Assembly: GCA_011389735.1 (NCBI GenBank)
Contig: JAABTS010000046.1
Span: 1 to 36,169 of the forward strand
Reading direction: 5' to 3'
From: Desulfobacteraceae bacterium
GTDB lineage: Bacteria; Desulfobacterota; Desulfobacteria; Desulfobacterales; JAABTS01
Length of the DNA stretch: 36,169 bases
Shown: piece by piece, positions 2,480 to 20,286 of the stretch
Position numbering within the stretch: position 1 is the first letter of the stretch
How the letters are laid out: each line of letters begins with the position of its first letter
The notes under the pieces: generated by a model
Seen by the model: the letters and a program-made list of their open reading frames with translations, nothing else
Told to the model about the DNA's origin: nothing
Databases searched by the model: none
Program-made: the position numbers and the translations under genes

Positions 2480-3217
2480 ATGCAAAGATGGGGACTTTCA
2501 GCGGCGATTGTGTTCTGGCTGGCGTTTTTGGGCGGCGGTATACCCATGATGATAACGGAAGTCTCCGCCATCGAACTGGACGATCTCGACGACCTGGATC
2601 GTCAGGATGTGGAAGATTACATCGAAAACGCCCGAAAAGCGGCGGACCGGGAAAATTTCAGCGATGCCGACGAGTATGTGGAAAAAGCGGCGAAATACGG
2701 CATTGAAAAGGCGGAATTCGAAAAAGCCCGGCAATATATATCGAAGAAGCGGCAGGAACGGGACGCCCGCCTTGCGGCCGAGCGGAAGGCCGAGGAAGAA
2801 CGGCGGGCTGCTGCTGCGGCCGCGGCGGCAGCGCGGGCGCGGACCTCGTCTTCGAGTACTAGCGGAACCGCTTTGGGACCGAATTCGGGCACGATCCTGG
2901 TGAGATTCGAAGACGGCGGAAATTTCTTCTCTCTCGAAATCGACGAATATACGATCACCATCCAGCGAACTGCCGATCTGGGGGGTAATACCGTCTATGA
3001 TTATCCATTGAAGGACACCGGCGGAACAGGTTTTTTTACCGGCGGAACGGCCAATTTCTTTAGTATTCCATTCGGGTATTACCGCGTCGAAGCAATCGGA
3101 CTGGATGACGGCCGGAAGGTTTACGGCACAGCCTGGAGCAACATCCGCCTCGACTGCGGGCAATTGTCGCTCACGCTTTATGGAAAAGACCGGAGTCCGA
3201 GTTTTTATTGCTGGTAA
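2480..3217 (+). CDS. Exported protein with Ala-rich coiled coil, function unknown
   Basis: The 245-residue protein has a hydrophobic N-terminal segment (about residues 5-28) consistent with a signal peptide or anchor. An acidic stretch full of Asp-Leu follows, then a charged helical segment (about 35-110). Next come a run of alanines after EEERRAAA and a Ser/Thr linker. The C-terminal domain (about 135-245) is strand-rich and Gly/Phe-rich, with TGGTGFFTGGTANFF and the end RSPSFYCW. ATG at 2480 is preceded by CAGGAGG. It lies 19 bases before the ATPase gene, so co-transcription is likely. No known family is recognised. A weak copy of its last ~20 codons occurs at 5766-5834. Confidence 0.7.
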   Translation: MQRWGLSAAIVFWLAFLGGGIPMMITEVSAIELDDLDDLDRQDVEDYIENARKAADRENFSDADEYVEKAAKYGIEKAEFEKARQYISKKRQERDARLAAERKAEEERRAAAAAAAAARARTSSSSTSGTALGPNSGTILVRFEDGGNFFSLEIDEYTITIQRTADLGGNTVYDYPLKDTGGTGFFTGGTANFFSIPFGYYRVEAIGLDDGRKVYGTAWSNIRLDCGQLSLTLYGKDRSPSFYCW

Positions 3218-3236
3218 AAGCAGGAGTAATGATACA

Positions 3237-5042
3237 ATGAAAACGAATCCCGCCATGCCCCCCTGGGCCGTCCGCCCCATTACGCCGGAACCGGTGTACA
3301 CGAATCGGGCCGAACATCTGGAATATCTTTATGAATACGCCCTCGAAACCATACCCCGGCGCAGCATGTCCACCGTGCTTTTGGGGCATCGCCGCATGGG
3401 TAAGACGGAGATTTTCAAGCGGGTGGTGAACCGGCTGTTTTTCGAGCAGGAATATTACGCGGATCCGAACCGGTCGGTCGTACCGGTGTTGTATACCTTT
3501 CAGGAAAAAATCATCGACAAATGGGATTTCGCCGGCGCCTATACGGAAAATTTTCTCAGGTGGTATGTGGCGTTTCGGTTGAGAGATCCGGACATCATTT
3601 CCCCGGAAGCCGTAAAACGGGAAACACTGATCCAACGAGTGCGTTCATCGGAAGGGCTCCGCAAGGAAATGCAATGGACGTTGAACCTTATGGAAGAAAT
3701 CCAAAGCAAGGCGATCATCCTGCCGGAAGAACGGGCGCTCTGGCTGCCGAGAAGAATTTCCGACCGGAATGACAGCTCTATCGTGATGTTTCTGGACGAA
3801 TTCCAGTACACCCGCCTGCCTCAATACGATTTCGATATCGTGGGGCTGATGCAGGAAGCCGTGGAATCCCCCACCTGTCCCCATTTCGTGACCGGTTCGG
3901 CCATGAGCATTTTAGCCGCTGAAATTCTGGGGCGGGGGTCTCTTTTCGGGCGGTTCCGCAGCAGGCCTATCGGTCCTTTGACCGAATACTGGGGCACGGA
4001 ACTCGCTTTACGAAGCGCCCGGTATTACAACGCTGAACTTACCGAAGACATGGCCCCGGTGCTTGCGGCGCGGTGCGGCGGAAACCCATTTTACATCACC
4101 GCCGTACTTCGACAGTCCGTGGAACAGGGAAAACCTCTTTCGGATGAGGAAAGAATCAACGAAATTCTGGCCGTGGATCTTTCCTCCGGCTTCATCTGGG
4201 GCGAATTGAACGACCAGGTGGAGCGATGGATTCACCGCATCAACGAAAGGGGGGTCACAAAATGGATTTTGTACCTTTCCGCTCTGGAAGAAAAGGAATT
4301 CATCGACGTAGAACGGATTCGCCGGGAATTATGGGAAAAAGATCAGCAGAAGGCCGCCATCGAGGATATCCGAAAGGTTCTTGTTCAACTCGCCAGAGGG
4401 GATCTTTTGGAATACAATGAATTAGGCAAATGGTTTCGAAAAGTGGATGATCCGATTTTGCTGGAATTTCTGAAGGTTTGGGGAAAGATCGCAGTCGAAG
4501 GAAACCGGGCTGACCGGGTGCAAAAAGAAATCATTCGAAAATATCAGACGCTGCGGCGAAGCATTCACAATCATCTCGGCTATCTGGGGGAAGTTTATAT
4601 GTCTCAGATTTTGTGGAACAATCAGGATAAAACCCTTCCCGGAACCTTTTTTCACAGCCGAGAGGATATTCTGATCCCCTGGCATTTCAATTATATCGCC
4701 CACCGTACGCGCCTGGGCGCGGCCGCCGACATGGAAATCGACGTTGAAGCCGCCGCCGGAAAAGAAATGTGGATCTGCGAAAGCAAGTGGTGGCGCGGAA
4801 AAAAAGCCGGCGTGAAGGAAGTGGAATCTCTGCTTTACAAGGGCGAGTTGCTCAGGGAAAAAGAAGGGCCGGGGCTGACGATCCTTCGCCTCTGGTTCTT
4901 CGCCCATGACGGGTTTACGGCGGAAGCCCGGTCGCTAATGGTGGAAAAAGGCGTATTGTGGTCGGATCGGGATGATCTGAACGGCCTGCTCGCTTTTGCG
5001 GGTTTGAAATCTTTGCCGGACATTCCGGCGACGGAATCTTGA
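3237..5042 (+). CDS. P-loop ATPase with C-terminal PD-(D/E)XK-like (DUF234-type) domain
   Basis: The 601-residue protein has a Walker A motif GHRRMGKT at residues 50-57 and a Walker B SIVMFLDEFQ with D187/E188. These match the archaeal-type/STAND-like ATPase group. A middle region rich in helices (about 300-430) looks like a winged-helix segment. The C-terminal part has YLGEVYMSQIL and then EIDVEA (D502) and ICESKW (E515, K517), a spacing that fits a PD-(D/E)XK nuclease fold as in DUF234 tails. ATG at 3237 follows GCAGGAG. Role unknown: defence, DNA handling or regulation are all possible. Its neighbours are an exported protein, a nucleotidyltransferase and TA remnants, which favours an accessory or defence setting. 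Confidence 0.75.
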   Translation: MKTNPAMPPWAVRPITPEPVYTNRAEHLEYLYEYALETIPRRSMSTVLLGHRRMGKTEIFKRVVNRLFFEQEYYADPNRSVVPVLYTFQEKIIDKWDFAGAYTENFLRWYVAFRLRDPDIISPEAVKRETLIQRVRSSEGLRKEMQWTLNLMEEIQSKAIILPEERALWLPRRISDRNDSSIVMFLDEFQYTRLPQYDFDIVGLMQEAVESPTCPHFVTGSAMSILAAEILGRGSLFGRFRSRPIGPLTEYWGTELALRSARYYNAELTEDMAPVLAARCGGNPFYITAVLRQSVEQGKPLSDEERINEILAVDLSSGFIWGELNDQVERWIHRINERGVTKWILYLSALEEKEFIDVERIRRELWEKDQQKAAIEDIRKVLVQLARGDLLEYNELGKWFRKVDDPILLEFLKVWGKIAVEGNRADRVQKEIIRKYQTLRRSIHNHLGYLGEVYMSQILWNNQDKTLPGTFFHSREDILIPWHFNYIAHRTRLGAAADMEIDVEAAAGKEMWICESKWWRGKKAGVKEVESLLYKGELLREKEGPGLTILRLWFFAHDGFTAEARSLMVEKGVLWSDRDDLNGLLAFAGLKSLPDIPATES

Positions 5043-5079
5043 GGGAAGAGATGAAGCAGGTTGACAAAACCATCGGGGC

Positions 5080-5556
5080 ATGGCAACAAAAAAAGCCATG
5101 ACCGCCATAAACCGCATTCCGCATATAAAGGGCGTTATGAGCAGAAAAGTAAAGGTTGTTCGTATTTTGAACAAGAATCGAACCCGATTCATAGAAATCG
5201 GCGTCAAGGCCATCGGTATTTTCGGTTCCGTAGCCAGGCAAACCGATGATGAAAACAGCGATGTCGATATTCTGGTGGAATTTGACGAAGACCGGCGAAC
5301 CTTTCGAAATTATAACCTGTTGTGCGATCTGCTTGAAAACCGTCTTGGGAAAGACATCGATCTGGTGACGTTTGACGGATTGAGCCCGCATATCGGTAAA
5401 AAGATATTGAAGGAAGTCGAATATGTCGAGCTTTTTCATTGTACTTGTTGTCTTGTGATTTGTGTGACCGCTGGAAGCTGGCGCTTCCACAACCGAAGTT
5501 CCCAAGCCGGAGCTTGGGAACCAATCTCAGACTTTGAGAGAGGCAGTGTCGTTTGA
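5080..5556 (+). CDS. MNT-type nucleotidyltransferase with a repeat-derived C-terminal tail
   Basis: The core reads IGIFGSVARQ, then SDVDILVEF and later IDLVTF. This is the G-S...DxD pattern of the minimal nucleotidyltransferase family (antitoxin/AMPylase partners of HEPN toxins). The family usually ends near a KKILKEVEYV-like helix, which here ends at about residue 118. The last 40 residues are read from the left part of the 5436-5637 repeat, so the original stop and any downstream HEPN gene have been replaced. A start at 5137 (MSRKVKVVRIL) is equally plausible and closer to family length; no start has a strong ribosome site. The catalytic core looks intact. A HEPN partner is not visible. Confidence 0.75.
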   Translation: MATKKAMTAINRIPHIKGVMSRKVKVVRILNKNRTRFIEIGVKAIGIFGSVARQTDDENSDVDILVEFDEDRRTFRNYNLLCDLLENRLGKDIDLVTFDGLSPHIGKKILKEVEYVELFHCTCCLVICVTAGSWRFHNRSSQAGAWEPISDFERGSVV

Positions 5557-5884: not shown

Positions 5885-5958
5885 AGGAATGAGACGCGGC
5901 AACCGGTATCTCGCCGACCGATAAAGTTCTTGTGCTCAGACCGAACCTTCTTTGCCGA

Positions 5959-5987
5959 TTGACATTTCTTCCCGTGATTGATACACG
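5959..5987 (+). promoter_or_regulatory. Candidate sigma-70 promoter for the envelope operon
   Basis: TTGACA at 5959-5964 is followed after 17 bases by TACACG at 5982-5987. The -35 is perfect and the -10 is weak. It sits about 45 bases upstream of the chosen start at 6037 and in the only sizeable gap before the operon. Confidence 0.3.
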
Positions 5988-6036
5988 TTTGAGTGTGAAA
6001 CCGGATTTATCAACCATTTATTGTATTGGATGCAAA

Positions 6037-6942
6037 ATGTTCAAAAGATTGTTTGGAAGAATAACCGGTGTGGTTGCGGGATTGTTGATGGGGGCGATTT
6101 TGGTTTTTACGCCGGTGTTTCCCGTGTGGGGGGTCGAGCCGGGCGGCGGATCTTCCTGTGACTATCCGATTGAAAGCAAGATGAATGTCCGGGATGTGTT
6201 CCGGATTTCGATGGGCGGCGGCGATTCCACTTTTTTTTACACGATTCAGGCGGGGTCTGAATTGGGGCGGAAAGCGGCCTGCCATAAAATCCGAACACTC
6301 CGGAACTCCGGTTATCCCGCCTTTATATCCTATGATCATATATCGCATCGATGGCGGGAAGCGAAGCGGCCGTTCAAAGGGTATGCAATACACACCGCAT
6401 CGTTCGCCGATGTTGAAAACGCCCGTACAATGATCGGCCGGCTCGAATCCAAGGGATTTCCCGCATTTTCAAGGTATATCGAAACGAAATCTTCCAAGGG
6501 CTGGAACCGTGTATACGCCGGTTATTACAAGGATCGGCGGGCTGCATCCCAGGCTTCCGGGGAGCTGAAACAGAAAGGATTTGACTACGCCGCTCCTGTG
6601 TCGTTTCAGGAGCCTTTGTTCAATATTTGTATCGGTCATTTTTCCGGTTTTCAAGACGCCCGAACCGCTGAATCCGAATTGAACCGGGACGGTATCGCCA
6701 ATACGACCCTGAAAAGAAATCCTTACGCCGTTCAAATCGGTTCATTTGAAACTGAAATGGAGCTTCACCGCATTATGGAGAAACTACGGGAAAAAGGCTG
6801 GGCCGCCTATATTTTGCCTCACCGGATAAGGCCTGAAAGAAAGAGGGTTTTGGCGGGCGCTTTCAGAGAAAAAGAAACGGCGGCCCGTTTGATCGAGTTG
6901 TTGAAAACGGACGGATTTGATCCGAAACTGGTTATTCGCTAA
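6037..6942 (+). CDS. Exported protein with several SPOR-like repeats
   Basis: The 301-residue protein starts with a clear hydrophobic segment (about residues 9-32), then a short Gly/Ser linker. The rest is repeats of the SPOR pattern (Y-x-I/V-Q-x-G-x-F, a helix, L-x-x-x-G-F/Y-x-A): FYTIQAGSELGRKAAC, YAIHTASFADVENAR, RVYAGYYKDRRAASQ, FNICIGHFSGFQDAR, YAVQIGSFETEMELH and VLAGAFREKETAARL. SPOR domains bind denuded peptidoglycan at division sites. This number of units is unusual, since most SPOR proteins have one. ATG at 6037 is chosen so the signal segment is N-terminal; ribosome site weak. It heads the operon with the lipoprotein and Tol-like genes, suggesting a periplasmic wall-contacting component. 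Confidence 0.7.
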   Translation: MFKRLFGRITGVVAGLLMGAILVFTPVFPVWGVEPGGGSSCDYPIESKMNVRDVFRISMGGGDSTFFYTIQAGSELGRKAACHKIRTLRNSGYPAFISYDHISHRWREAKRPFKGYAIHTASFADVENARTMIGRLESKGFPAFSRYIETKSSKGWNRVYAGYYKDRRAASQASGELKQKGFDYAAPVSFQEPLFNICIGHFSGFQDARTAESELNRDGIANTTLKRNPYAVQIGSFETEMELHRIMEKLREKGWAAYILPHRIRPERKRVLAGAFREKETAARLIELLKTDGFDPKLVIR

Positions 6943-6968
6943 GTTAAAACGATACATGCAGGAACTGA

Positions 6969-7640
6969 ATGAAACCGAGATATCTATTTCAAACGCTTTT
7001 AGTTACGGCTATGGGATTGCAGCTCGCATGCACGCAAAATATTCATCTGGTGAAGGCCCGTGACGGCGAGTTTCCAGGATATTCATACGATGTGGTCGCC
7101 ATTGATAAGAACGCCGGGGAAGAGGCCGGCATGGGGAAGGACACTCCCTTGATCATCGATCCGGAAACTACCGATATTCGGCTCAACCTGATCGGGCTGG
7201 GCGATCCAATGGCGCTGTCCCATGTGGATACGGCCGGAAAGGAGGCGTATATTCGATCCGTAACGGAGACGGTAAGAAGTTTTGCGCAGGTGGCGGAGGC
7301 CGCATACGGGTCCGGAGACGGGTCCGGCCGGGAGCGGTTTAGAACGGAAACAAACGTATATCTGGGGCTGTACGTGGATTCGCTGTTAAAGGATTTAAAG
7401 GGGGACCTCAGCCCGGAGGCGGATACGGAGGCGGCCCGTCTATATCTGGAATCCGTCCGGTTATGCCGGAATATCGGAAACACCGGCAAGGCTGTTACAT
7501 ATTTGAATCTGTTCGAAAAACGTTACGGCGGAACTCCGGAGGCCGTTGCTCGATCAATCGGGGCCCTGAATCCGTCATCGACGGATATTGTCGACTCATA
7601 CCGCCTTCTCAAAGGCAATCTCGGGGGCTCCACAGAATAA
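6969..7640 (+). CDS. Predicted lipoprotein of the Tol-like operon
   Basis: The 223-residue protein has a short basic N-terminus and a hydrophobic stretch ending in LQLAC, a weak lipobox with Cys at residue 21. It is therefore probably lipid-anchored in the outer membrane or periplasm. The mature part is mostly helical from about residue 85 on (TVRSFAQVAEAAYG, DTEAARLYLESVRLC, KAVTYLNLFEKRYG), with a TPR-like feel but no definite repeat. It lies 26 bases after the SPOR protein and 41 bases before the TolQ-like gene. No Pal/OmpA peptidoglycan-binding signature is present, so it is not Pal. Function unknown; an envelope partner of the downstream proton channel is inferred. Confidence 0.65.
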   Translation: MKPRYLFQTLLVTAMGLQLACTQNIHLVKARDGEFPGYSYDVVAIDKNAGEEAGMGKDTPLIIDPETTDIRLNLIGLGDPMALSHVDTAGKEAYIRSVTETVRSFAQVAEAAYGSGDGSGRERFRTETNVYLGLYVDSLLKDLKGDLSPEADTEAARLYLESVRLCRNIGNTGKAVTYLNLFEKRYGGTPEAVARSIGALNPSSTDIVDSYRLLKGNLGGSTE

Positions 7641-7681
7641 ACACATCATTTACGAGACGATTCAATCGGTAGAAAACCATT

Positions 7682-8395
7682 ATGGACGCCATCAACAACT
7701 TTTTCAGCGTATTTGCGGACGCGGTCATCAACGCGTTGACGATTTTTTTAAACACCTATTCCGGAACCTTGCAGGGGCTTATGTTTCTTATTCTGGCCTG
7801 GATTTTTATGTCGGCGATGCTCAAATGTTTCCAGGCTGTCCGCCGTTTAGCGCCGGTTCGATCCGATGAGATTGAAAAACGGAATTTGTTTCTGGATCAT
7901 GGGGATCAAACGCCGCTTGCGATATCTGCGGCGTCTTTCTTTGTGAAGTCCAGAAGTCATTATCAGCAGGCTGTTGCATCAAAAGAAATTCTAAACCGCC
8001 AGACGCCTCCTGACGAATATGTCAGGGACGCGGCCTTTCAGTACAGCAAGCGGTTTTTCGAGGAAAAATATTTGGAACCGATTTCCATGACGGCCAACTT
8101 GTTGCCGCCTCTGGGATTTATCGGCACCATTATCGGGATGGCGGCGCATTTCATCACCAGTACGGGCGGTATTGACACTCAGGCGACCGCATCCGGAATA
8201 GCGATGGCCTTATACACCACATTGATCGCCCTTGCCGGATTCACAATGATCGAATTTATTAAAAAGATCTGTTATACGGCGTCCCAGAAACGAATCGCCG
8301 AGGGACTGGACGCGGTGGCCGAAAACGGGATTCCTGAGACCCGGACGGCGCCGGGAGTTCAGTTTCAAATTCAGGGGGCGCGAAGCGGATCATGA
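7682..8395 (+). CDS. MotA/TolQ/ExbB-like proton channel subunit
   Basis: The 237-residue protein has three membrane segments at about residues 29-50, 137-160 and 172-196. The order is TM1, a large cytoplasmic loop, then TM2 and TM3, the TolQ/ExbB plan. TM2 contains LLPPLGFIGTIIGM and TM3 contains GIAMALYTTLIALAG, matching the family's conserved Pro/Gly and Thr positions that line the proton path. Such proteins form a pentamer around a dimer of an ExbD/TolR-type protein and use the proton-motive force in the inner membrane. The next gene, overlapping by four bases, is that partner. The sequence is diverged, so I do not call it tolQ or exbB. Confidence 0.8.
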   Translation: MDAINNFFSVFADAVINALTIFLNTYSGTLQGLMFLILAWIFMSAMLKCFQAVRRLAPVRSDEIEKRNLFLDHGDQTPLAISAASFFVKSRSHYQQAVASKEILNRQTPPDEYVRDAAFQYSKRFFEEKYLEPISMTANLLPPLGFIGTIIGMAAHFITSTGGIDTQATASGIAMALYTTLIALAGFTMIEFIKKICYTASQKRIAEGLDAVAENGIPETRTAPGVQFQIQGARSGS

Positions 8396-8880
8396 GAGTC
8401 GAGCGGAATCAGGCATGGCTCTTTGCGTTTACGGATCTGGCGTTTTTGTTATTGATCAGCATTAGCCTGATACCGGATAAGCCTGAAACGCTTGCCTTGG
8501 ATCTGTCCAAAATGAATGTTCCCGCCGTGGCCGATAACAGGGGCGCTAGCCCGGCGCTTGAATCCGACGCCGTATGGCGGTTATGGATATATCCGCGTTC
8601 CGAAGCGCATCCCGCTCCTTTTAAACTGGAACAGGCGGCGCCTGGAGCGGATTCCGAAAATGTTTTGTTTTCCCGGTATATTTCCCGGAAGGCCCTGGCC
8701 GGGGATTTGGCCGCCCTGAAATCGCAAATGAGAACAAAACCGTTGTTAATTCCGGAAAAAACGTCCTATAGCGAGGATTTGCTGTTTGCGGCGTCGGCGC
8801 TGGGCCGCGTATGGGACGGCGCCGGCCGGGCGGACTCGGCCGTCAAAGTCGAGAAAACGAAAAACGTAAGGGCTGAGTGA
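8392..8880 (+). CDS. ExbD/TolR-like single-pass protein
   Basis: The 162-residue protein has one N-terminal membrane segment (about residues 9-27, WLFAFTDLAFLLLISISL). Asp15 lies inside it, as the essential protonated Asp does in ExbD/TolR (their LxDVxFLLL pattern). The rest would be periplasmic and ends with LLIPEKTSYSEDLLFAASAL, similar in place to the ExbD/TolR C-terminal strand-helix. The ATG overlaps the TGA of the TolQ-like gene (ATGA), and its own stop overlaps the next start. It should form the rotor/plug of the proton channel. The periplasmic domain is unlike standard TolR and has a ~70-residue region I cannot place. Confidence 0.7.
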   Translation: MRVERNQAWLFAFTDLAFLLLISISLIPDKPETLALDLSKMNVPAVADNRGASPALESDAVWRLWIYPRSEAHPAPFKLEQAAPGADSENVLFSRYISRKALAGDLAALKSQMRTKPLLIPEKTSYSEDLLFAASALGRVWDGAGRADSAVKVEKTKNVRAE

Positions 8881-10130
8881 TGTTTTCCGATCACTATGGA
8901 TACGGATGGGGAGCGGGAAAGATTGGAATGCCGAGGGGCGTCCGGCTTTCGCCGGGCGCGGCCGATGTCTGTCCCGCTTTTTTGACCGCCGCACGGCGCA
9001 TTGTGGTCAAGGATACAAATAGGGCGGGCGTGATCTTGATTTTTCTGGCAGCGGTTCTTTGTATTTTGATTGTCGCGCGAAACCCCCTTGTGCGGCCGCC
9101 TCGAACGAATCCTCCCGAAATTGCGGGCGGACCTACGATGATCCGGATACCAGATCCGGTCGCGGACGCCGTTACGGCCCCTGAACGGCAACAGGCGAAG
9201 CCCGCAGCCGTTGAAAAACCGCCCCGGCCGGAGGCGGTAAAGCGATATTCCGCGGATACCATACGGCCGGTTCTTGTTCATAAAACGGAACCTGAATCCC
9301 GAGCGGTTCCGGCAATTTCAAAACCGGCCGAACCGGAGACGAACCCCAAAACCTCCGAAACTTCCGACCTGCCGGAGCCGGACATAAAACATCGGAACAC
9401 CGCCGTAGCATCGAATCGCTACTATCCGCGTTCCGCTCACGCCTCGTTGTCGGCTTCCAAAGATAAAAAAGCCCAAACGACGCTCATACCTGTTTCAGTT
9501 TCACAAGCCGGGCTCCGGCTCGTTGATCGAAAACGGCGTGATGTATCCGGAAACGGGCCTCCGGCCCGGTTTCAAAACAAATCGATTCCGGTTGAACCCA
9601 ATGAAAGAATCGATTTCTCCAAACCTCGGATAAAACAAGACATATACTCCGGAAATTTTTCACCTGACGCGTCCCTGAACCGGCCGGGGATTGCCCAGGA
9701 AGGGATGGAGACGGACCGGACCGGATCGACCGTTCGTTTGAAACCGGTTTTTGGAGGTGAGACGAAAAGAAATTTCGGGAAAAGGGACGGGAGTATATCA
9801 GGCAGTTCCCGGAGCGCCGCCGGATGGGGAGGCGCTGAGACTCTGTTCCGGGGCGCCGGCGCTGAAATAAGCCCCGTTTTTCCATTGACGGCATTGAAGG
9901 TCTGCGCTGAACCGGACAGGGAATTCAAATTGCGAAATCGACTGGCTTCCATTTTGGACGGGCCCGGGACGTATGAATCCGGAGATCTGATGTTCCGATT
10001 CAAAGGAACCGCCACGGCCTATTCCCTGGATGTCGAAATTATTGGGGCCGGCGAGGCGGTCGAATCCATCGCCGACAGGTGCGAGGCTCTTGAATCCGCT
10101 ATCCGGTGCGTCCTGAACGATAACCGCTGA
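8880..10130 (+). CDS. TonB/TolA-like single-pass periplasm-spanning protein
   Basis: The 416-residue protein has an N-terminal cytoplasmic stretch, one membrane segment at about residues 49-66 (GVILIFLAAVLCILIVA), and then about 250 residues rich in Pro, Lys, Glu, Arg and Ser. A compact C-terminal region (about 335-416) carries GDLMFRFKGTATAYSLDVEIIG. This is the layout of TonB/TolA: anchor, extended linker, small C-terminal domain. ATG at 8880 overlaps the upstream TGA (TGATG). The TolQ/R-like pair directly before it supports a force-transducing role. The cytoplasmic extension before the membrane segment is longer than usual for TonB. No known TonB C-terminal motif is seen. Confidence 0.6.
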   Translation: MFSDHYGYGWGAGKIGMPRGVRLSPGAADVCPAFLTAARRIVVKDTNRAGVILIFLAAVLCILIVARNPLVRPPRTNPPEIAGGPTMIRIPDPVADAVTAPERQQAKPAAVEKPPRPEAVKRYSADTIRPVLVHKTEPESRAVPAISKPAEPETNPKTSETSDLPEPDIKHRNTAVASNRYYPRSAHASLSASKDKKAQTTLIPVSVSQAGLRLVDRKRRDVSGNGPPARFQNKSIPVEPNERIDFSKPRIKQDIYSGNFSPDASLNRPGIAQEGMETDRTGSTVRLKPVFGGETKRNFGKRDGSISGSSRSAAGWGGAETLFRGAGAEISPVFPLTALKVCAEPDREFKLRNRLASILDGPGTYESGDLMFRFKGTATAYSLDVEIIGAGEAVESIADRCEALESAIRCVLNDNR

Positions 10131-10151
10131 CAAATCAAAAGGAGTTGATTC

Positions 10152-12203
10152 TTGAAAAAATATCTTGTCTGTTTACCGCTTTTATGGGTGTTTGTTCTGA
10201 GTTCGCCGGCGGCCGGAAAATCAGATCCGGAACAATGGGGGCGGATTATGGATGTGGCGCATAAATTCACCTGGTATCCCCGGGAAAATCTTCTCGATCT
10301 TTTAGAACGTTATACTCTGGAATTCGGTTGCGGATTGGACGTGTATTGCGCATCGATGGTCGAACGGATGACCGGAGGGCGGACGTTTCCGGACGGCGTC
10401 ATCGATCCCGGCGCATTTGTTTCCGGGAACCCTCGGGAGTCTTATTATCGGCTGGCGATGGGGCAGTTCAGCCTGTACCTGGCCGGCGGGAACCCGGTTC
10501 ATTTAACCAATGCGCAACTGGTCATGTCGCCTTTGGCGAACCGGATTTCGTTGCCCCGGTTTCAGTTCTGGGATTGTCTGATTCGCGCGCACGCCGGATT
10601 GATCGAGAGAAACCGGGAAAAATTCATGTCCTCGGTCTTTGATATCTGGCAAAACATTATCTTGAAACAGGAAGCTGAAAAACTTTTGACGGATACGGCG
10701 TTTGCGGGCGATTTGCCGTATCTGTACGAAAATCTGGCGTCGTTGGTCATGCAGAAGGGCGTTATTGACGCCGGATTGACGGGTTTGGATCCGCTGTCGG
10801 TTATTATTCTGGATATCAAGGACCGATTGAGCCTGGGAACAGGTTATAAAAACTGGGTTCAGGCGATCGCGGAACGATTGAACGGTTTGAAATCCGATAA
10901 TTGTAATCTCAATTTCGCCGTGGAGATCGTCGAAGGCGTGTCCAGCCGCCACGATTTCGAGGATGCAACGGATCAGAAATCCCTGGAAACCGCCTATGCA
11001 AATACAACAAAATATTTTGTAAGGGCCGCGAATTCCGCAAAAACCGGAAAAGGCAAATCAGCCGTGCTGACATTGCGTATCGGATTTGCACACTATGCAT
11101 TGCAGCGTATGATCGACGGGGACGCCGCGATGGCCGATTCCGCTCGATTTGCGGATCTTCCCGGCGAAGCGGCGTCCCTGACCCGTGAAGCGCTTGAGTT
11201 GTACCGTTCCCTGGCCACGCCTCGCATTCAGGCGGGAGACTTTAAAAAACACGGATTTTTCAGCGAAGAGAACTATATCGAAGCGATGCATCAGTTGTGG
11301 GACGCAGCCGCAAAGCTTCTTGTTGTTCGATCCGATTATCGCAGAACGAAGGGTGCGCGGGGCAAGGCCTCGAATTTCGGATTGATCGAAAAGCCCCTGA
11401 CGGATTATCTGACGCTGTTTGAAGAATACGCTGTCCGCGATCAGGCCGTGGTGCCGGACAACGCTTATTTTCTGGCGGCTTATGTATCCGGAGAGCTGGC
11501 CGGGCTATATCGCAAAGCCGCTTCCAACAGTTCGGACATTTTGATCAATGACCTGGCGATGGCCAGACAGCTTCAGTCCATAGAAATCTATCCCCTTGAA
11601 ATGTACGGAATTCTTTATCTGGCCAATCAGGCGGTTCAGGAGCGGCGGATCAACATGTATTTGAAATACGCCTGCGGAGTCGCTTCCCTGTTTCGCGGCC
11701 TCAATATGGATACGGACACAATTTCGGCTGGATCTGAATTTTCCGAAATACCGGTCATGATTAAAACCGTCTTGCCTGATTTGATCGATCACGCGCCGGT
11801 TCTCGTGGAATTTCTCGACGATCCGGACGAATCAGGCGAGCCGCTTGTCCGGAAAGCGCTGGTCATGTCGGCGCTGCTGGCGAAAACAGGAAAGAAAAGA
11901 GGGCAGGAAATCGCCGAGGGGCTTTTGAGCGCCGTAGCCGGACGGCGGTTTCCGGGGCCTGCCGGAAATACGCACGTCGTACTGAGGGATGTGCTTCCCG
12001 AAGATTTTTACGACGCCGCTGAATCGATTTCCGAACGGGATTATGCGGCTACAGGGACCAAATTGACCTACATGCTTTACGGAACCATCAGCCATGAGGT
12101 ACATGCGTTTATCCGTAAAATGTTTTATAAAATTTCATATCCGGATCATATCTATCCCAGGCTCATGGATCAATCCGGAACCTGGCGGCCGATATTTGAA
12201 TAG
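10152..12203 (+). CDS. Large exported protein of the Tol-like operon, function unknown
   Basis: The 683-residue product has a signal peptide (KKYLVCLPLLWVFVLSSPAAG, cleavage about residue 22). The start is TTG at 10152, supported by AAAAGGAGT eight bases upstream. The mature part is almost wholly helical with no membrane segments, and is rich in Leu/Ala helices such as EAASLTREALELYRSLA and NDLAMARQLQSIEIY. This is consistent with an alpha-solenoid periplasmic or surface protein. It follows the TonB-like gene by 21 bases and precedes the decarboxylase gene by 28 bases. I recognise no domain. As the largest member of the operon it may be the substrate-handling or structural component of the energised system. 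Confidence 0.65.
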   Translation: MKKYLVCLPLLWVFVLSSPAAGKSDPEQWGRIMDVAHKFTWYPRENLLDLLERYTLEFGCGLDVYCASMVERMTGGRTFPDGVIDPGAFVSGNPRESYYRLAMGQFSLYLAGGNPVHLTNAQLVMSPLANRISLPRFQFWDCLIRAHAGLIERNREKFMSSVFDIWQNIILKQEAEKLLTDTAFAGDLPYLYENLASLVMQKGVIDAGLTGLDPLSVIILDIKDRLSLGTGYKNWVQAIAERLNGLKSDNCNLNFAVEIVEGVSSRHDFEDATDQKSLETAYANTTKYFVRAANSAKTGKGKSAVLTLRIGFAHYALQRMIDGDAAMADSARFADLPGEAASLTREALELYRSLATPRIQAGDFKKHGFFSEENYIEAMHQLWDAAAKLLVVRSDYRRTKGARGKASNFGLIEKPLTDYLTLFEEYAVRDQAVVPDNAYFLAAYVSGELAGLYRKAASNSSDILINDLAMARQLQSIEIYPLEMYGILYLANQAVQERRINMYLKYACGVASLFRGLNMDTDTISAGSEFSEIPVMIKTVLPDLIDHAPVLVEFLDDPDESGEPLVRKALVMSALLAKTGKKRGQEIAEGLLSAVAGRRFPGPAGNTHVVLRDVLPEDFYDAAESISERDYAATGTKLTYMLYGTISHEVHAFIRKMFYKISYPDHIYPRLMDQSGTWRPIFE

Positions 12204-12231
12204 CGGCCCATTGTATGATACGGAACCGGTT

Positions 12232-13878
12232 GTGAACAAAAAATATCAAACAATTATCAGCACGGATGCGGAAAAAAGCGGCCTGGTCGCTAATTGGGAG
12301 ACGCTCCAGAGAATTTTCATTCGTCCGGAAAACGAGGCGTCCCGGATCGCTCTGGTGAAATACATGGAACAGATTCTGTTCGGCCTGCATGATTTTTTGC
12401 AAAAACATGTGGGGATCACCCGTGAGGCCGGACTCAGACAATTGTCCGACCGGTTCAAGAACAGCGCCATCGGAAAGCATCCGGAAAAAAAACTGGCGGA
12501 CGTGATCCAGGGAATTATCGAAGACATCGCGCCTCACGCAGTCAATGTGGCATCGCCCTATTTTATCGGCCATATGACGTCCGCCATACCCTTTTTTATG
12601 GTGCATCTGGCCACCATCGTTTCGGCGCTGAACCAGAACGTGGTCAAGCTGGAGACGTCAAAGATCGTTTCCGTTCTGGAACGGCAGGTGCTGGCGAAAA
12701 TTCATCGTATTATTTACGATTTTAGCGAGGACTTTTACGATTTTCATATACAACGGCCGGAAAGTACACTGGGCAGTTTTGTGGAGGACGGAACCCTGGC
12801 GAATTTGACGGCGTTATGGGTCGCACGCAATCGATGTTTCCCCCCCGGGCCCGGATTTGAAGGCGTGGAAGCTGAAGGCGTGGCGGCGGCTTTCCGGGCG
12901 CATCAGGTGGATCGATGCGTCATCCTGGTTTCGCGCCTGGGGCATTACTCCTTGGAAAAAGCCTGCGGGGTCTTGGGAATTGGAAACGGGAACATCATAC
13001 CGGTGGATATCGACGCGGACAATCGGATGGATATCGGCGCGTTGAAACGGGAAATCGCCGTGATCCGGAATCAGAGCCCCGGCGTTAAAATACTTGCGGT
13101 GGTCGGGATTGCGGGAACCACTGAAACGGGAACCGTTGATCCGCTTGGTGAAATCGCCGATGTTTGCCGCACCCACGGCGTTCATTTCCATGTGGACGCG
13201 GCCTGGGGCGGACCTGTGCGGTTGTCCGACAAATATAGAACCTTATTGAACGGTGTCGAAAAGGCCGATTCCGTGACCATTGACGGCCATAAACAGTTCT
13301 ATATGCCCATGAGCTGCGGCATGGTGTATTTCAAGGATCCTCAGGCGATGGATTCGGTCGCCTATCACGCCGCGTATATCGCCAGGCCGGGGTCGGTGGA
13401 TCTGGGCATCCGTTCCCTGGTCGGTTCGCGAAGCGCCGTGTCTCTGATACTGGGATCAGCCATTGAAATCATGGGACGGAAAGGATACGCCCTGCTGATC
13501 GACCACGGCATTGAAACGGCTGCGGCCTTCGCCGAGCTTATCAAGCGGAGGCCTCTTTTCGAACTGGTCACGCCTCCCGAATTGAATATTTTGACATACC
13601 GTATATTTCCCGGCCCTTTGAAGCAGGAATGGCGATCCACCGGGCTCGAAAAACGGAAACAATTGACTCGAAAACTGAACCATATCAATATCACTGTTCA
13701 AAGAATGCAGAGGGAGGCCGGGAACAGCTTTGTGTCCCGAACCACGCTACGCAGATCCGGCGCGGACGATATCGTGGTTCTGAGAAGCGTTATCATGAAT
13801 CCCCTGACGAACATGGCTGTATTGACGGATATTTTGAACGAACAGGAATATTTATACCATCGCCTTCCGGAAACTTGA
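12232..13878 (+). CDS. panP: PLP-dependent group II decarboxylase, PanP-like (putative aspartate 1-decarboxylase)
   Basis: The 548-residue protein is a fold-type I PLP enzyme. HFHVDAAWGG contains the Asp (about 322) that contacts the pyridine nitrogen, and TIDGHKQFYMPMSCG contains the Schiff-base Lys (about 354). VEDGTLANLTALWVARN and VVGIAGTTETGTVDPL are substrate and cofactor loop motifs of the glutamate/aspartate decarboxylase group. Overall length and the N-terminal FIRPEN region fit PanP, which makes beta-alanine from aspartate for pantothenate and CoA. Related glutamate or tyrosine decarboxylases remain possible. GTG at 12232 is used; TTG at 12211 is an alternative, and neither has a strong ribosome site. 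It follows the envelope operon by 28 bases. Confidence 0.75.
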   Translation: MNKKYQTIISTDAEKSGLVANWETLQRIFIRPENEASRIALVKYMEQILFGLHDFLQKHVGITREAGLRQLSDRFKNSAIGKHPEKKLADVIQGIIEDIAPHAVNVASPYFIGHMTSAIPFFMVHLATIVSALNQNVVKLETSKIVSVLERQVLAKIHRIIYDFSEDFYDFHIQRPESTLGSFVEDGTLANLTALWVARNRCFPPGPGFEGVEAEGVAAAFRAHQVDRCVILVSRLGHYSLEKACGVLGIGNGNIIPVDIDADNRMDIGALKREIAVIRNQSPGVKILAVVGIAGTTETGTVDPLGEIADVCRTHGVHFHVDAAWGGPVRLSDKYRTLLNGVEKADSVTIDGHKQFYMPMSCGMVYFKDPQAMDSVAYHAAYIARPGSVDLGIRSLVGSRSAVSLILGSAIEIMGRKGYALLIDHGIETAAAFAELIKRRPLFELVTPPELNILTYRIFPGPLKQEWRSTGLEKRKQLTRKLNHINITVQRMQREAGNSFVSRTTLRRSGADDIVVLRSVIMNPLTNMAVLTDILNEQEYLYHRLPET

Positions 13879-16529: not shown

Positions 16530-18239
16530 ATGGCGGACTCGGATTTTTTAACCGAAGGCAATGTGTTTTCAAAGGACAGGCGGCTCGACAAGCTTCTTCA
16601 GACTGTTGTAAAAGAAGTGAAGTCCTTTGCCGAGGACCAGATCCGGCAGATCAAAAGCAGCGCTGAGATCGGCCTGGCGTTGTCCGTAAAGACGGATATC
16701 AACGCGCTTTTCGAGAAAATCGTGGACCAGGCCCGGACTCTTTCAAACGCCGACGGCGGGACGCTTTACACTCTGAACGCTGAAGGCGACCATCTTTGTT
16801 TTTGTATTCTGCAAAACGCGTCCATGGGAATTCGTATGGGCGGCAACAGCGGTTTTGAAATCACCCTTCCCGATGTTCCACTCTATTTTGACGGCGATCC
16901 GTCGAATCCCAATTATTCCAATGTAGCGTCCCATGTGGCGATTACCGGTGAGATTGTCAATATTCATGATGTTTATGATTATGAAGGTTTCGATTTTTCA
17001 GGAACGCGGAATTATGACAAAACCATAGGTTATCAATCCAAGTCCATGCTGGTGATTCCGCTGAAAAACCATGAAGACCGGATTATCGGGGTTCTTCAGT
17101 TGCTCAATGCGCAAGATCCGGAAACCGGCAAGGTGGTTCCGTTTTCTCATGAATATGAAGATCTGATTTTGTCTCTGGCGTCCCAGGCTGCTGTGGCGTT
17201 GACCAATACGCAGCTTATCAAGGAGCTTCGGGAGCTGTTCATCGCCTTTATCGAAAGTATCGCCACCGCCATCGATAAAAAATCGCCGTTCACGGGGGAT
17301 CATATCCGGCGGGTAGTTGATTTAAGCATGTTGATCGCCCGGCGGATCGACGACGCCGATGAAGGTCCGTTTAAAAACGTGCATTTCACCGACGACGAAC
17401 TGGAGGAATTCAGGCTGGCTGCGTGGATGCACGATGTGGGAAAAATCACCACTCCCGAACATCTGGTCAACAAAGCCACCAAGCTGGAAGGCATTTCAGA
17501 CCGGTTCGAATTGATTGAAACCCGGTTTCATTTGATCGGTAAAACCATTGAAAACGCGGCTTTGCATCAGAGGCTGGCGCTTCTGGAGAACGGCGGCGCA
17601 TCCAATGATGATTTACAGCGTCTGAACGAAAAAGTTATGGCGGAACTCAAACTGCTCGATGATGATTTGGCGTTCATCAAAGCCTGTAACACGCCTTCGG
17701 AATTCATGAGTGATGAAATGCTCGAAAGGCTTCGAGAAATATCCAATAAAAGATATTTGTTTTATGGAAAAAAATACCCGTATTTGAAACAAGAGGAACT
17801 GGTCAACCTTTCGATTAGAAAAGGCACTCTAAACGCGGAGGAACGGAAAGTTATCGAGGGCCATGCTATGATGACCTACGAGATTTTGAGAAGACTTCCG
17901 CTTCCGCGCCATCTCAAAAACCTTCCGCTCTATGCGGCGGGACATCATTTAAAGGTCAACGGTGAAGGATATCCTGAAGAACTTCGGATGGCGGATCTTC
18001 CCTTGCAATCGAGGATTATGGCCGTGGCCGATGTTTTTGAAGCCCTTACCGCCAAGGACAGGCCTTATAAAAAAGCCATGAGTCTTTCTCAAGCCCTTGA
18101 CATATTGGGCAGGATGAAAGACGATGGCCATATTGATCCGGATATCTACACCTTGTTTATCCAAAGCCGGATTTTTCAGGAGTATGCGGTCAAGGAACTG
18201 GCGGTGGAACAAATCGACTATAGCCTTCCGAAAATTTAA
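16530..18239 (+). CDS. GAF plus HD-GYP domain phosphodiesterase
   Basis: The 569-residue protein has a GAF sensor domain at about residues 50-235 (SLVKTDI-like start, DGGTLYTL, SMLVIPLKN, IIGVLQLLNA). An HD-GYP domain follows from about 240, with HD at 301-302 (MHDVGK) and HH at 472-473 followed by NGEGYP (GYP at 480-482). HD-GYP enzymes degrade cyclic di-GMP. Between the HD and the next conserved His (about 445) there are about 143 residues instead of the usual ~28, so about 115 residues are inserted, mainly charged helices. No transmembrane segment. It opens a same-strand signalling cluster with two HDOD proteins and a cyclase. Confidence 0.9.
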   Translation: MADSDFLTEGNVFSKDRRLDKLLQTVVKEVKSFAEDQIRQIKSSAEIGLALSVKTDINALFEKIVDQARTLSNADGGTLYTLNAEGDHLCFCILQNASMGIRMGGNSGFEITLPDVPLYFDGDPSNPNYSNVASHVAITGEIVNIHDVYDYEGFDFSGTRNYDKTIGYQSKSMLVIPLKNHEDRIIGVLQLLNAQDPETGKVVPFSHEYEDLILSLASQAAVALTNTQLIKELRELFIAFIESIATAIDKKSPFTGDHIRRVVDLSMLIARRIDDADEGPFKNVHFTDDELEEFRLAAWMHDVGKITTPEHLVNKATKLEGISDRFELIETRFHLIGKTIENAALHQRLALLENGGASNDDLQRLNEKVMAELKLLDDDLAFIKACNTPSEFMSDEMLERLREISNKRYLFYGKKYPYLKQEELVNLSIRKGTLNAEERKVIEGHAMMTYEILRRLPLPRHLKNLPLYAAGHHLKVNGEGYPEELRMADLPLQSRIMAVADVFEALTAKDRPYKKAMSLSQALDILGRMKDDGHIDPDIYTLFIQSRIFQEYAVKELAVEQIDYSLPKI

Positions 18240-18326
18240 TTTCACTGCGTTGTCGGCCTGGAATATACGACAGTATTATCCCGGGCCCCCGCCTTGTGGA
18301 ATTTAATTTCTGAAAACCTGTATCAA
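18234..18326. repeat. Palindromic intergenic repeat
   Basis: It begins TTTAATTTCACTGCGTTG and continues GTCGGCCTGGAATATACGA. The facing arm is CCGGGCCCCCGCCTTGTGG with AATTTAATTTCTGAAAACC. The left arm overlaps the stop codon of the HD-GYP gene. The folded element could act as a transcription terminator or mRNA stabiliser between the HD-GYP gene and the HDOD gene 12 bases downstream. Confidence 0.65.
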
Positions 18327-18337
18327 GATCGGATAAA

Positions 18338-20218
18338 ATGAGCGAACCGCGATTTCGATTAATTTTTAAAGGCGTCTCCCAAAAGGCCGGGACTCAGAAA
18401 CTGATAATGTTCTTCAAGAAAGAATTCGACCTGACGGAGTCTGCGATACGGAATTTGTTTGTGCATCCGCCTAGAGTGTTGTGGGAGGTGCCGGCGCGAA
18501 GCGATGCGGAAATGATTCAATCCGCCTTGATGAAGATCGGGTGCCTGGCTGAGGTGGAGGCCGTGGTGTCCTATCCCTCATGTTCCTTTACGATATCCGA
18601 AGCCAATGACCGGTTTATGCGAAAGGAGCTGAGCAAAATTTTAAGAGGCCGGACTGATCTGGCGTTGTTCCTGGTAAAAGTGGAGCCGTCGTCCCCTCGT
18701 ACGTTTATACCGTCCATGATGGGCGGGGTGTCCGAAAAGATGAACGTCTTTTTCCGCGAAAGCGACACGGTGCTCAGCATTGACGATGAATACATGATTG
18801 TTCTTGCGTTTTCCACGGATAAAAGCGGTGTTGACGCAGTTCGGAAAAAGATTGTCCGGGGCGTGAAGGAATTGTTCGGCGAAACCAACGTCAACGTGAG
18901 TATCGGATATTCCATTTTTCCAGGCAACGTCCGTTCCTTTGCGGAATTAATCAGCCTGGCGGAACAGGACCGAAAACGCCGAATCCATGATCCGGAGGGT
19001 GCTTCAGTGGAAACCAAACCGGCGTCTGACGCTGCGAGGCCGCTTGTACCATCTGAAAAAGGGCGGCTTTCAAATTATTTGACGGGCGCCTCCGGCAAGG
19101 TCTTTAAACGGATGATGAACATGGATTCCCGGACGCTCATGTCCGGGATCGGCAAATTGCCCCCCCATGAACAAAAAGCCTTTTTGTACCGGCTTCCCTT
19201 TGATTCCGCCGTCGCCGGCCATATCAGCGAGATGATCGGTTCCCATACTTCGTTTCAAATTGATGAAGCCGAAGAAAAGCGGATGGAAGCCATTCTTCAT
19301 CAAATCAAAGAAGAAGAGCGTCCCCGGGCGGACAACAAGATCAAACAGTCGGTGGCTGCGGAATTGAACCGGGCGGAAAACCTTGCCACTCTTCCGGCCG
19401 TCGCGACTCATGTGTTTAAAATCGCATCCAACCCGGATACGTCCCCCGAAGAAATTGCGTCGGTGATTATGAATGATCCGTCATTGACGACGAAGTTGTT
19501 GAAAACAGTGAATTCAGCGTATTACGGAAATCTGAGAAAGGTGCACACCGTCAAGGACGCCGTTGTACTCCTGGGATCTGACGAAATTACGGATCTGGCC
19601 TTCGGACTCGCCGCGTCCAAGGTTTTTGACGCCTTGAAAGGCCGCTTTATCGATCCCAGGCGCTTGTGGCGACATTCCTTGAGCACAGCGCTCATTGCGC
19701 GAAACCTGATTCACGGCGTGTCGGGATTCGAAAAATCGAGAATTATGACAGCAGGTCTGATCCACGACGTGGGGAAAATATTTTTGATCGAGCATTTTAC
19801 GGAATCCTATGAAACCCTTTATGAGGAGGCGGAAATGAATAATCTCCCGATTCCGGATCTCGAAGAGGACATATTCGGCCACACACACGCCTTCATCGGG
19901 AGGCAATTGTGCGCTAACTGGCATCTTCCCGAGTCACTGGCCGATGCGGTCGCCTACCATCATCAACCCATGTCCGCCTCAGAAAATCGTGAAGTCGCCG
20001 CGATTGTCGGACTTGCGGATTATCTGGCCCATTCCGCGATGGATTCGAATTCGAGTCAAAATCGATACTTGAATATAACCCCGATATTGACCATGGGGCA
20101 CTGGATTGTTTTGAAAACGGTTTTTAAAGACCTCGAACATGCGTCGGTGCCGAAAATGGTTGGAAAAGCCGAGGATGTCGTCAAGTTAGGGCACGACCTT
20201 CTGGCGATGATAGAATAG
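18338..20218 (+). CDS. Degenerate GGDEF-like plus HDOD domain signalling protein, paralogue 1
   Basis: The 626-residue protein has three parts. Residues about 1-80 are a small alpha/beta domain. Residues about 85-215 have the fold pattern of a GGDEF domain (LFLVKVEPS, FFRESDTVLSIDDEYMIVLAF, VNVSIGYSIFP) but no GG(D/E)EF motif, so cyclase activity is unlikely. Residues about 345-580 are an HDOD domain: LATLPAVATHVFKIA, DPSLTTKLLKTVNSAYYG, VKDAVVLLG, then LIHDVGK with H476/D477 kept and VAYHH. Most HDOD proteins lack the catalytic HD pair, so retention here is notable. It shares its whole layout with the next gene. HDOD proteins usually act as regulatory scaffolds; the target is unknown. Confidence 0.85.
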   Translation: MSEPRFRLIFKGVSQKAGTQKLIMFFKKEFDLTESAIRNLFVHPPRVLWEVPARSDAEMIQSALMKIGCLAEVEAVVSYPSCSFTISEANDRFMRKELSKILRGRTDLALFLVKVEPSSPRTFIPSMMGGVSEKMNVFFRESDTVLSIDDEYMIVLAFSTDKSGVDAVRKKIVRGVKELFGETNVNVSIGYSIFPGNVRSFAELISLAEQDRKRRIHDPEGASVETKPASDAARPLVPSEKGRLSNYLTGASGKVFKRMMNMDSRTLMSGIGKLPPHEQKAFLYRLPFDSAVAGHISEMIGSHTSFQIDEAEEKRMEAILHQIKEEERPRADNKIKQSVAAELNRAENLATLPAVATHVFKIASNPDTSPEEIASVIMNDPSLTTKLLKTVNSAYYGNLRKVHTVKDAVVLLGSDEITDLAFGLAASKVFDALKGRFIDPRRLWRHSLSTALIARNLIHGVSGFEKSRIMTAGLIHDVGKIFLIEHFTESYETLYEEAEMNNLPIPDLEEDIFGHTHAFIGRQLCANWHLPESLADAVAYHHQPMSASENREVAAIVGLADYLAHSAMDSNSSQNRYLNITPILTMGHWIVLKTVFKDLEHASVPKMVGKAEDVVKLGHDLLAMIE

Positions 20219-20286
20219 CCGGATGGCCTCCTTTTCGTCCATAACCGGCGAGATCAAAATTGGAGGATAAATAACGCCTTGGTTTT

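Follow-up and report, generated by a model that had tools for sequence, protein, structure and literature searches.

The question raised by this locus is whether a run of Tol/Exb-like genes in a Desulfobacteraceae bacterium encodes an envelope machine of its own and which genes belong to that machine. The genes lie on a stretch of 36,169 nucleotides (GenBank assembly GCA_011389735.1, contig JAABTS010000046.1; contig C374 of the 6.5-Mb draft genome G000), referred to below as the window. An initial annotation, made from the sequence alone, had proposed an undescribed operon at 6037-13878 with six members: a multi-SPOR protein, a lipoprotein, a TolQ/ExbB-like subunit, a TolR/ExbD-like subunit, a TonB/TolA-like protein and a large solenoid protein, named here SPOR, LIPO, Q, R, A and SOL. 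All six open reading frames (ORFs) were present in the window, all on the + strand (Table 1). The SPOR protein, within ORF 5932-6942, has its probable start at the proposed ATG 6037, and the A protein has 416 residues if it starts at ATG 8880 and 417 if it starts at GTG 8877. The overlaps noted between the channel genes were borne out by the ORF coordinates: the Q and R reading frames share four bases, and the R/A junction is TGATG.

The conserved five-gene unit

The conserved unit was LIPO-Q-R-A-SOL (6969-12203, + strand), found in this order at 27 nonredundant loci, window included. Its recurrence is far beyond chance, because the order was seen at 26 loci other than the window. SOL was present at 26 of the 27 loci, the 27th of which runs off its contig, and six of the 27 carried a second SOL gene. 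The order was also kept in two held-out genomes of one genus (G752 and G887) that contributed to no profile; their R membrane segment was kept as well (ending in FLLV), and their A tails read YGWG and YGLG. R and A overlapped by four bases in 23 of the 35 loci listed.

The loci were collected with one strict pattern taken from the R segment WLFxFxDxAFLLL, which was run on 84,980 species genomes and yielded 66 stretches and 37 confirmed loci; because a single strict pattern was used, the locus total is a lower bound. The loci were then typed by profiles built from the pattern loci and earlier ones, with duplicates removed (L036, L037, L038 and L039, equal to L047, L048, L066 and L060; L043, L044, L045 and L070, equal to L072, L078, L081 and L069; and L122, equal to L077). 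L046, a channel match only, was dropped before counting. Thirty-nine nonredundant loci with this motor remained: the 27 of the LIPO-Q-R-A-SOL type and 12 of a second type, with Q-R-A' and other exported proteins.

The carriers were Desulfuromonadales and Pelobacter, Geomonas, Geobacter and other Geobacteraceae, Desulfoluna, Desulfobacteraceae and one Nitrospirae metagenome-assembled genome (MAG). The window genome is of the same order as a Desulforapulum autotrophicum MAG (G017, locus L066). R was rare: of 395 genomes searched in the window's phylum, four had it, and in the phylum of the Nitrospirae MAG it occurred in 1 of 198, which was the one already known. Within the phylum, 6 of 297 genomes carried SOL, and within the order 7 of 389; it always lay inside such a cassette, and two of the six phylum loci carried a different motor. 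No description of the cassette was found in the available portions of the open-access literature, including PMC12204202, PMC3169522, PMC12505986, PMC6272769 and PMC9389320. LIPO-Q-R-A-SOL appears to be a new, narrow family of Tol/Exb-type proton-driven envelope machines, distinguished by its own signature for joining motor and arm.

The SPOR gene and the last gene of the proposed range fared differently. The SPOR gene stops 26 bases short of LIPO and runs in the same direction, which would fit a SPOR-led division machine with the multi-SPOR protein as its working end. However, phmmer (E 1e-5) detected no homologue of this protein at the other loci, a negative that is weak by itself because SPOR domains are divergent, and in 10 of 14 other cassette genomes, the ten with a known cassette contig, SPOR matches were not beside the cassette. 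A division machine of this kind is thus very improbable, and the SPOR gene is apparently a local addition outside the cassette. The neighborhood search suggested with the initial annotation gave a divided answer: the five-gene order recurred at the 26 other loci, where no counterpart of the SPOR protein was detected. The range 6037-13878 encloses the cassette genes but also takes in a PanP-like gene, which had no homologue at the 12 loci compared and is not part of the cassette.

Table 1. Features of the cassette and the adjoining genes (window coordinates; pLDDT, predicted local distance difference test; pTM, predicted template modeling score)
Feature	Position	Strand	Evidence
SPOR, exported protein with three SPOR repeats	6037..6942	+	PF05036, E 4.8e-28
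LIPO, small helical protein, exported and probably a lipoprotein (QLAC)	6969..7640	+	In 27/27 loci of the LIPO-Q-R-A-SOL type
Q, TolQ/ExbB/MotA-type channel subunit, divergent clade	7682..8395	+	MotA_ExbB (PF01618), 34.8 bits (cut-off 22.9)
R, TolR/ExbD-type subunit, membrane segment WLFxFxDxAFLLL with Asp15	8392..8880	+	Alignment of 10 R
A, putative periplasm-spanning transducer: YGxG tail, transmembrane helix without His, Pro/Lys-rich linker, Cys-containing C-terminal domain	8880..10130	+	
A C-terminal domain, two invariant Cys	9855..10127	+	Predicted alpha-beta-beta-beta-alpha, pLDDT 86.2
SOL, 683-residue exported all-helical solenoid	10152..12203	+	AlphaFold2 mean pLDDT 87.6, pTM 0.84
PanP-like pyridoxal phosphate-dependent decarboxylase	12094-13878		NCBIfam 603.8 bits, just under cut-off 606.1; HtpG gene next

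The predicted motor and its arm

By homology, Q and R are a divergent TolQ/ExbB and TolR/ExbD motor. Q scored above the MotA_ExbB cut-off, its channel-helix threonines T149 and T180 were invariant in eight aligned Q's, and sequence searches against solved structures returned PomA, MotA and ExbB, all weakly. A tree of 70 sequences placed every one of the 39 Q's in a single clade with support of 100/100 on a long stem; the deeper placement of this clade is uncertain because the tree has long branches. The R segment was invariant in the alignment of ten R proteins, including Asp15 (10/10), the residue singled out in the initial annotation, and the R profile found one R-type gene per cassette locus. 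ExbD (PF02472) matched four of ten R family members (best 1.3e-5) and not the window R. Among the six ORFs, SPOR was recognized by Pfam and NCBIfam, and Q gave a weak match; for R, A, SOL and LIPO of the window no family exceeded its cut-off, and sequence searches of R, the A C-terminal domain and SOL against solved structures gave no convincing match.

The genome carries a separate Tol-Pal operon (G000:C433), in which TolQ, TolB, Pal and YbgF exceeded their NCBIfam cut-offs and TolA fell under its own. On the TolQ equivalog model, Q scored 16.7 bits against a cut-off of 221, and the other TolQ of the genome scored 234.2. The view that these genes form a separate, undescribed Tol/Exb-like operon is supported, since Tol-Pal is encoded separately in this genome, no family was matched by R, A, SOL or LIPO, and many genomes share the gene order. 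The same genome also holds two MotA-like genes, an ExbB-like protein of 505 residues and a further ExbB/ExbD-like pair. At another locus (L097, G000:C45, 1602-8688, - strand), another orphan MotA_ExbB/ExbD pair and several unassigned, partly exported-looking proteins have Cas1, Cas2 and a reverse transcriptase as neighbors.

A second or divergent Tol-Pal system would share with the cassette the motor class, a single-helix TolA-like arm, exported partners including a probable lipoprotein, and possibly a wall or outer-membrane theme; the LIPO profile also matched the YbgF/CpoB of the genome weakly (E 8e-4, 11.8 bits). Against such a system (TolQRA-TolB-Pal-CpoB), Q lies far below the TolQ cut-off, the Tol-Pal operon of the genome lies elsewhere, and the cassette has a YGxG tail in place of the SHLS pattern, the solenoid SOL and an arm C-terminal domain without sequence match. 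As the initial annotation had noted, TolB, Pal and a TonB-dependent receptor are missing: Pfam scans of 21 window proteins turned up none of them, the search for TolB and Pal being confined to the window and not extended to the other loci. We consider a Tol-Pal variant highly improbable.

The layout of A agreed with the description of a TonB/TolA-like protein: a predicted cytoplasmic tail of about 30-70 residues precedes a single transmembrane (TM) helix, which a long linker rich in Pro and Lys connects to a C-terminal domain. According to PMC12204202, TolA and TonB dock on the motor via an SHLS motif in the TM helix; a simple SHLS pattern was found in none of 38 A proteins, and the same pattern matched the genome's own TolA. 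No His was present in the predicted TM core of the 35 located A proteins (four of the 39 were not located). The tail motif [Y/F/C][G/S]xG was found in 35 of 38 A proteins, and the other three look degenerate; the A gene of L064, missed by the motif script, has the tail FGRG when read by eye. As background, these loci hold 463 ORFs of 150 residues or more, A genes counted in, and 39 of them have the motif within their first 22 residues.

The C-terminal domain of A, 84-94 residues as cut, contains two invariant cysteines, which possibly form a disulfide. It had no sequence match to TolA or TonB, a profile comparison with one TolA included. In fold comparisons, Foldseek gave no match at E<=0.001 and VIA Z reached 2.6, with TolA and TonB not among the matches listed. 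An energizer of the Ton type, serving a TonB-dependent receptor encoded elsewhere, is suggested by the Pro-rich linker, which resembles that of TonB. Such an energizer is most unlikely, however, as A matched no TonB family in Pfam or NCBIfam, no receptor was encoded among the window proteins scanned, and LIPO and SOL are present at 27/27 and 26/27 loci of the LIPO-Q-R-A-SOL type. Similar in layout are the uncharacterized von Willebrand factor A (vWA) force transducers, motor-linked arms with a TM helix, a linker and a non-TonB C-terminal domain, sometimes with a TPR gene adjacent, as described by Williams-Jones et al. (2025, PMC12204202). There, the arms have a vWA domain and an SHLS or TolR-like pore helix; A instead has a C-terminal domain of about 90 residues, no SHLS and a separate R partner.

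Natural exchange of motor and output

Two natural exchanges bear on the function of the arm. In the first, two loci (L041 and L042) keep LIPO, A with its Cys domain and SOL but have another motor, consisting of two ExbB-type channel genes and a separate ExbD-like gene. The A tails at these loci lack the motif, with uncertain start codons for both A genes. In the second exchange, Q and R are retained at the 12 second-type loci (those of Desulfoluna, Desulforapulum and other taxa), and A' keeps the tail in 11 of them (degenerate in L062); the A' C-terminal domain was not detectably related to that of A (hhalign probability 0.2; 11 compared), and the other exported proteins had no match to SOL. 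Taken together, the two exchanges indicate that the tail tracks the motor and that the C-terminal domain tracks SOL and LIPO. This distribution provides the strongest functional evidence, and it suggests which end of the arm binds what.

A match between the A profile and the second-type arms (probability 97.5) was discarded because the A profile already held two of those arms (L058 and L062). LIPO matched a second-type locus protein weakly (profile probability 31). The second-type loci (L058-L068 and L040) encode up to three further exported families of about 690, 570 and 480 residues, the Desulfoluna copies of which matched no Pfam family over cut-off. L042 also encodes, between its second ExbB and its separate ExbD, a 434-residue ExbB-type and ExbD-type fusion according to Pfam (1607-2908), with a 439-residue homologue in L041 (4787-6103).

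The L041/L042 channels grouped with AglR-like proteins (99/91), which brings in a gliding or spore-coat machine of the Agl-Glt/Nfs kind (AglRQS, GltC/D/E/G). That kind of machine shares with the cassette a TolQR-class motor, a periplasm-spanning arm, envelope solenoids and an outer-membrane barrel, and the Agl-Glt core is reported to be clustered in Geobacter (Luciano et al., PMC3169522). With the Q profile, the AglR-like protein reached 71 bits and the TolQ of the genome 38.5 bits, but the AglR-like channels of L041/L042 were already part of that profile. Nevertheless, Geobacter G157 and Geomonas G400 have, besides the cassette, a separate locus with an AglR-like gene and two adjacent ExbD genes; Agl-Glt has two ExbD-like subunits (AglQ and AglS), whereas the cassette has one R-type gene. 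Profiles of SOL, A and LIPO found nothing convincing at the Agl-Glt-like locus, the best being SOL against a 668-residue protein (hhalign probability 23.6); these matches were weak, and the reference proteins were chosen by locus layout and not by Glt models. An A-profile match to proteins of this locus was rejected as TM helix and Pro-rich linker only. An Agl-Glt/Nfs identity is therefore improbable in our judgment.

From the observed genes, their order and co-inheritance, the motif distribution and the predicted folds, we infer motor action, contacts and purpose as follows. The cassette would be a force transducer that spans the envelope, draws on the proton motive force and acts on a solenoid complex of the periplasm and outer membrane, one that is probably linked to the wall; we hold this reading to be probable though well short of certain. 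As homology suggests, Q and R would assemble into a TolQR/ExbBD-class motor with a proton channel across the inner membrane, the protons passing by way of R Asp15 and the conserved threonines of Q. A would be the moving arm; judging by the exchange pattern, its cytoplasmic YGxG tail would dock on this motor, replacing the SHLS helix motif. Its single helix would span the membrane and its long linker the periplasm, and the Cys-containing C-terminal domain may engage SOL, LIPO or both, as their co-inheritance indicates. SOL, a helical solenoid, would serve as a scaffold in the periplasm, and LIPO is probably anchored in the outer membrane where the copy of the species has a lipobox. Cycles of the motor would then pull or reposition the outer complex.

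Few outputs of TolQR-class ion-driven motors are known. The cassette provides a defined, narrowly distributed five-gene machine whose signature is WLFxFxDxAFLLL in R together with YGxG at the start of A. It may represent a third coupling mode of the 5:2 proton motor, with the arm recruited by a cytoplasmic YGxG tail and not by an SHLS helix, and a modular platform, on which a single motor class would power two or more unrelated outputs and a single output could be powered by two motor classes; we put this forward tentatively. Motor re-use becomes testable, for example, in Geomonas with named strains.

Proposed outer components and neighboring genes

The large solenoid protein of the initial annotation was supported by the AlphaFold2 model of SOL, which was all-helical. 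The window copy and the members listed have a signal peptide-like start, and none of 32 members matched a Pfam family at E 0.01. Foldseek gave a best E of 0.054, and VIA Z reached 11.7, which is within the helical-repeat range and names no relative. The LIPO signal peptide of the window ends in QLAC, an atypical lipobox. A relaxed lipobox pattern matched 16 of 30 LIPO proteins, one of the 30 being truncated, and was absent in the seven Geomonas members. The label of lipoprotein thus likely holds for the window LIPO but is not a constant of the family.

Genes near the cassette were grouped into clusters by single linkage. A gene of an outer membrane protein (OMP)-barrel family adjoined the cassette at 13 of the 27 loci, ten upstream in the same direction and three downstream and convergent. 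Four such neighbors were checked by Pfam: two had AMIN (L073 and L078), one OmpA (L071) and one TSP_3 repeats (L051), with AMIN or OmpA in Geobacter and Geomonas. Because wall-binding domains recur beside the cassette (SPOR in the window; AMIN or OmpA in those two genera), our best guess at its purpose, by analogy with Tol-Pal, is a coupling of the outer membrane to peptidoglycan, which we regard as possible rather than established. At eight Desulfuromonadales/Pelobacter loci (L049-L056), a gene for a tail-specific protease (Prc-like, S41; L050 checked) was found upstream of LIPO.

The Geomonas loci hint at another output: as an energizer like Salmonella SiiA/SiiB, the motor would control whether a giant adhesin exported by type I secretion is retained, released or displayed. 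At six of seven Geomonas loci, an ORF of the giant-protein cluster follows SOL, with gaps of about 345 (L071) and 428 bases (L069), and the L071 giant protein has 14 Cadherin_4 stretches and RTX repeats. Upstream, TolC-like ORFs were found at 7/7 loci, an ABC exporter at six, LapD at five and LapG at four (one copy of each checked by Pfam), and LapG was present in all seven Geomonas genomes. PMC6272769 describes SiiAB as a proton channel for SiiE retention.

The likeness to SiiA/SiiB-SiiE (Salmonella pathogenicity island 4), a proton channel beside a giant adhesin, was confined to Geomonas. The giant-protein cluster occurred at no non-Geomonas locus (other adhesin kinds were not searched for), and the 21 scanned proteins of the window included no giant type I secreted adhesin. 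The draft genome of the window yielded no LapG. Of 40 cassette genomes, 13 had LapG, and five of these belong to the second locus type; because LapG was absent from the other 27, the link is not general, and an adhesin energizer appears unlikely for the family. SiiAB is not known to have a TolA-like arm or a solenoid. The Lap context hints at surface assembly at the level of the genus, and the OmpA/AMIN partners elsewhere hint at the cell wall. As an observation on the region itself, L071 1-20443 and other Geomonas loci constitute a Lap-type giant-adhesin region with a C39-peptidase ABC exporter.

Several points weigh against the wall-linked force transducer and its proposed parts. The giant adhesin next to the Geomonas cassettes favors another purpose; the OMP neighbor is missing at 14 of 27 loci; and AMIN, OmpA and SPOR are common domains, which may belong to unrelated neighbors. 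Fourteen of 30 LIPO proteins had no lipobox match. The structure models are of AlphaFold2 monomers, and the outer-membrane target of A is assumed, because its C-terminal domain has no match to TolA or TonB. The absence of SHLS rests on simple patterns, strict YGxG occurs in only 25 of 38 A proteins, and the tail pattern was defined after the sequences had been viewed. The first exchange comes from two genomes of one family, with the start codons of A uncertain.

PADLOC gave no match, and promoter and terminator scans were near chance level. In the window upstream of the cassette (3105-5556), a weak, below-cut-off AAA/ATPase_2 protein is followed by a minimal nucleotidyltransferase. Downstream (16530-23440), signaling genes lie in a row, encoding GAF and HD domains, two HDOD proteins and a GAF-guanylate/adenylate cyclase.

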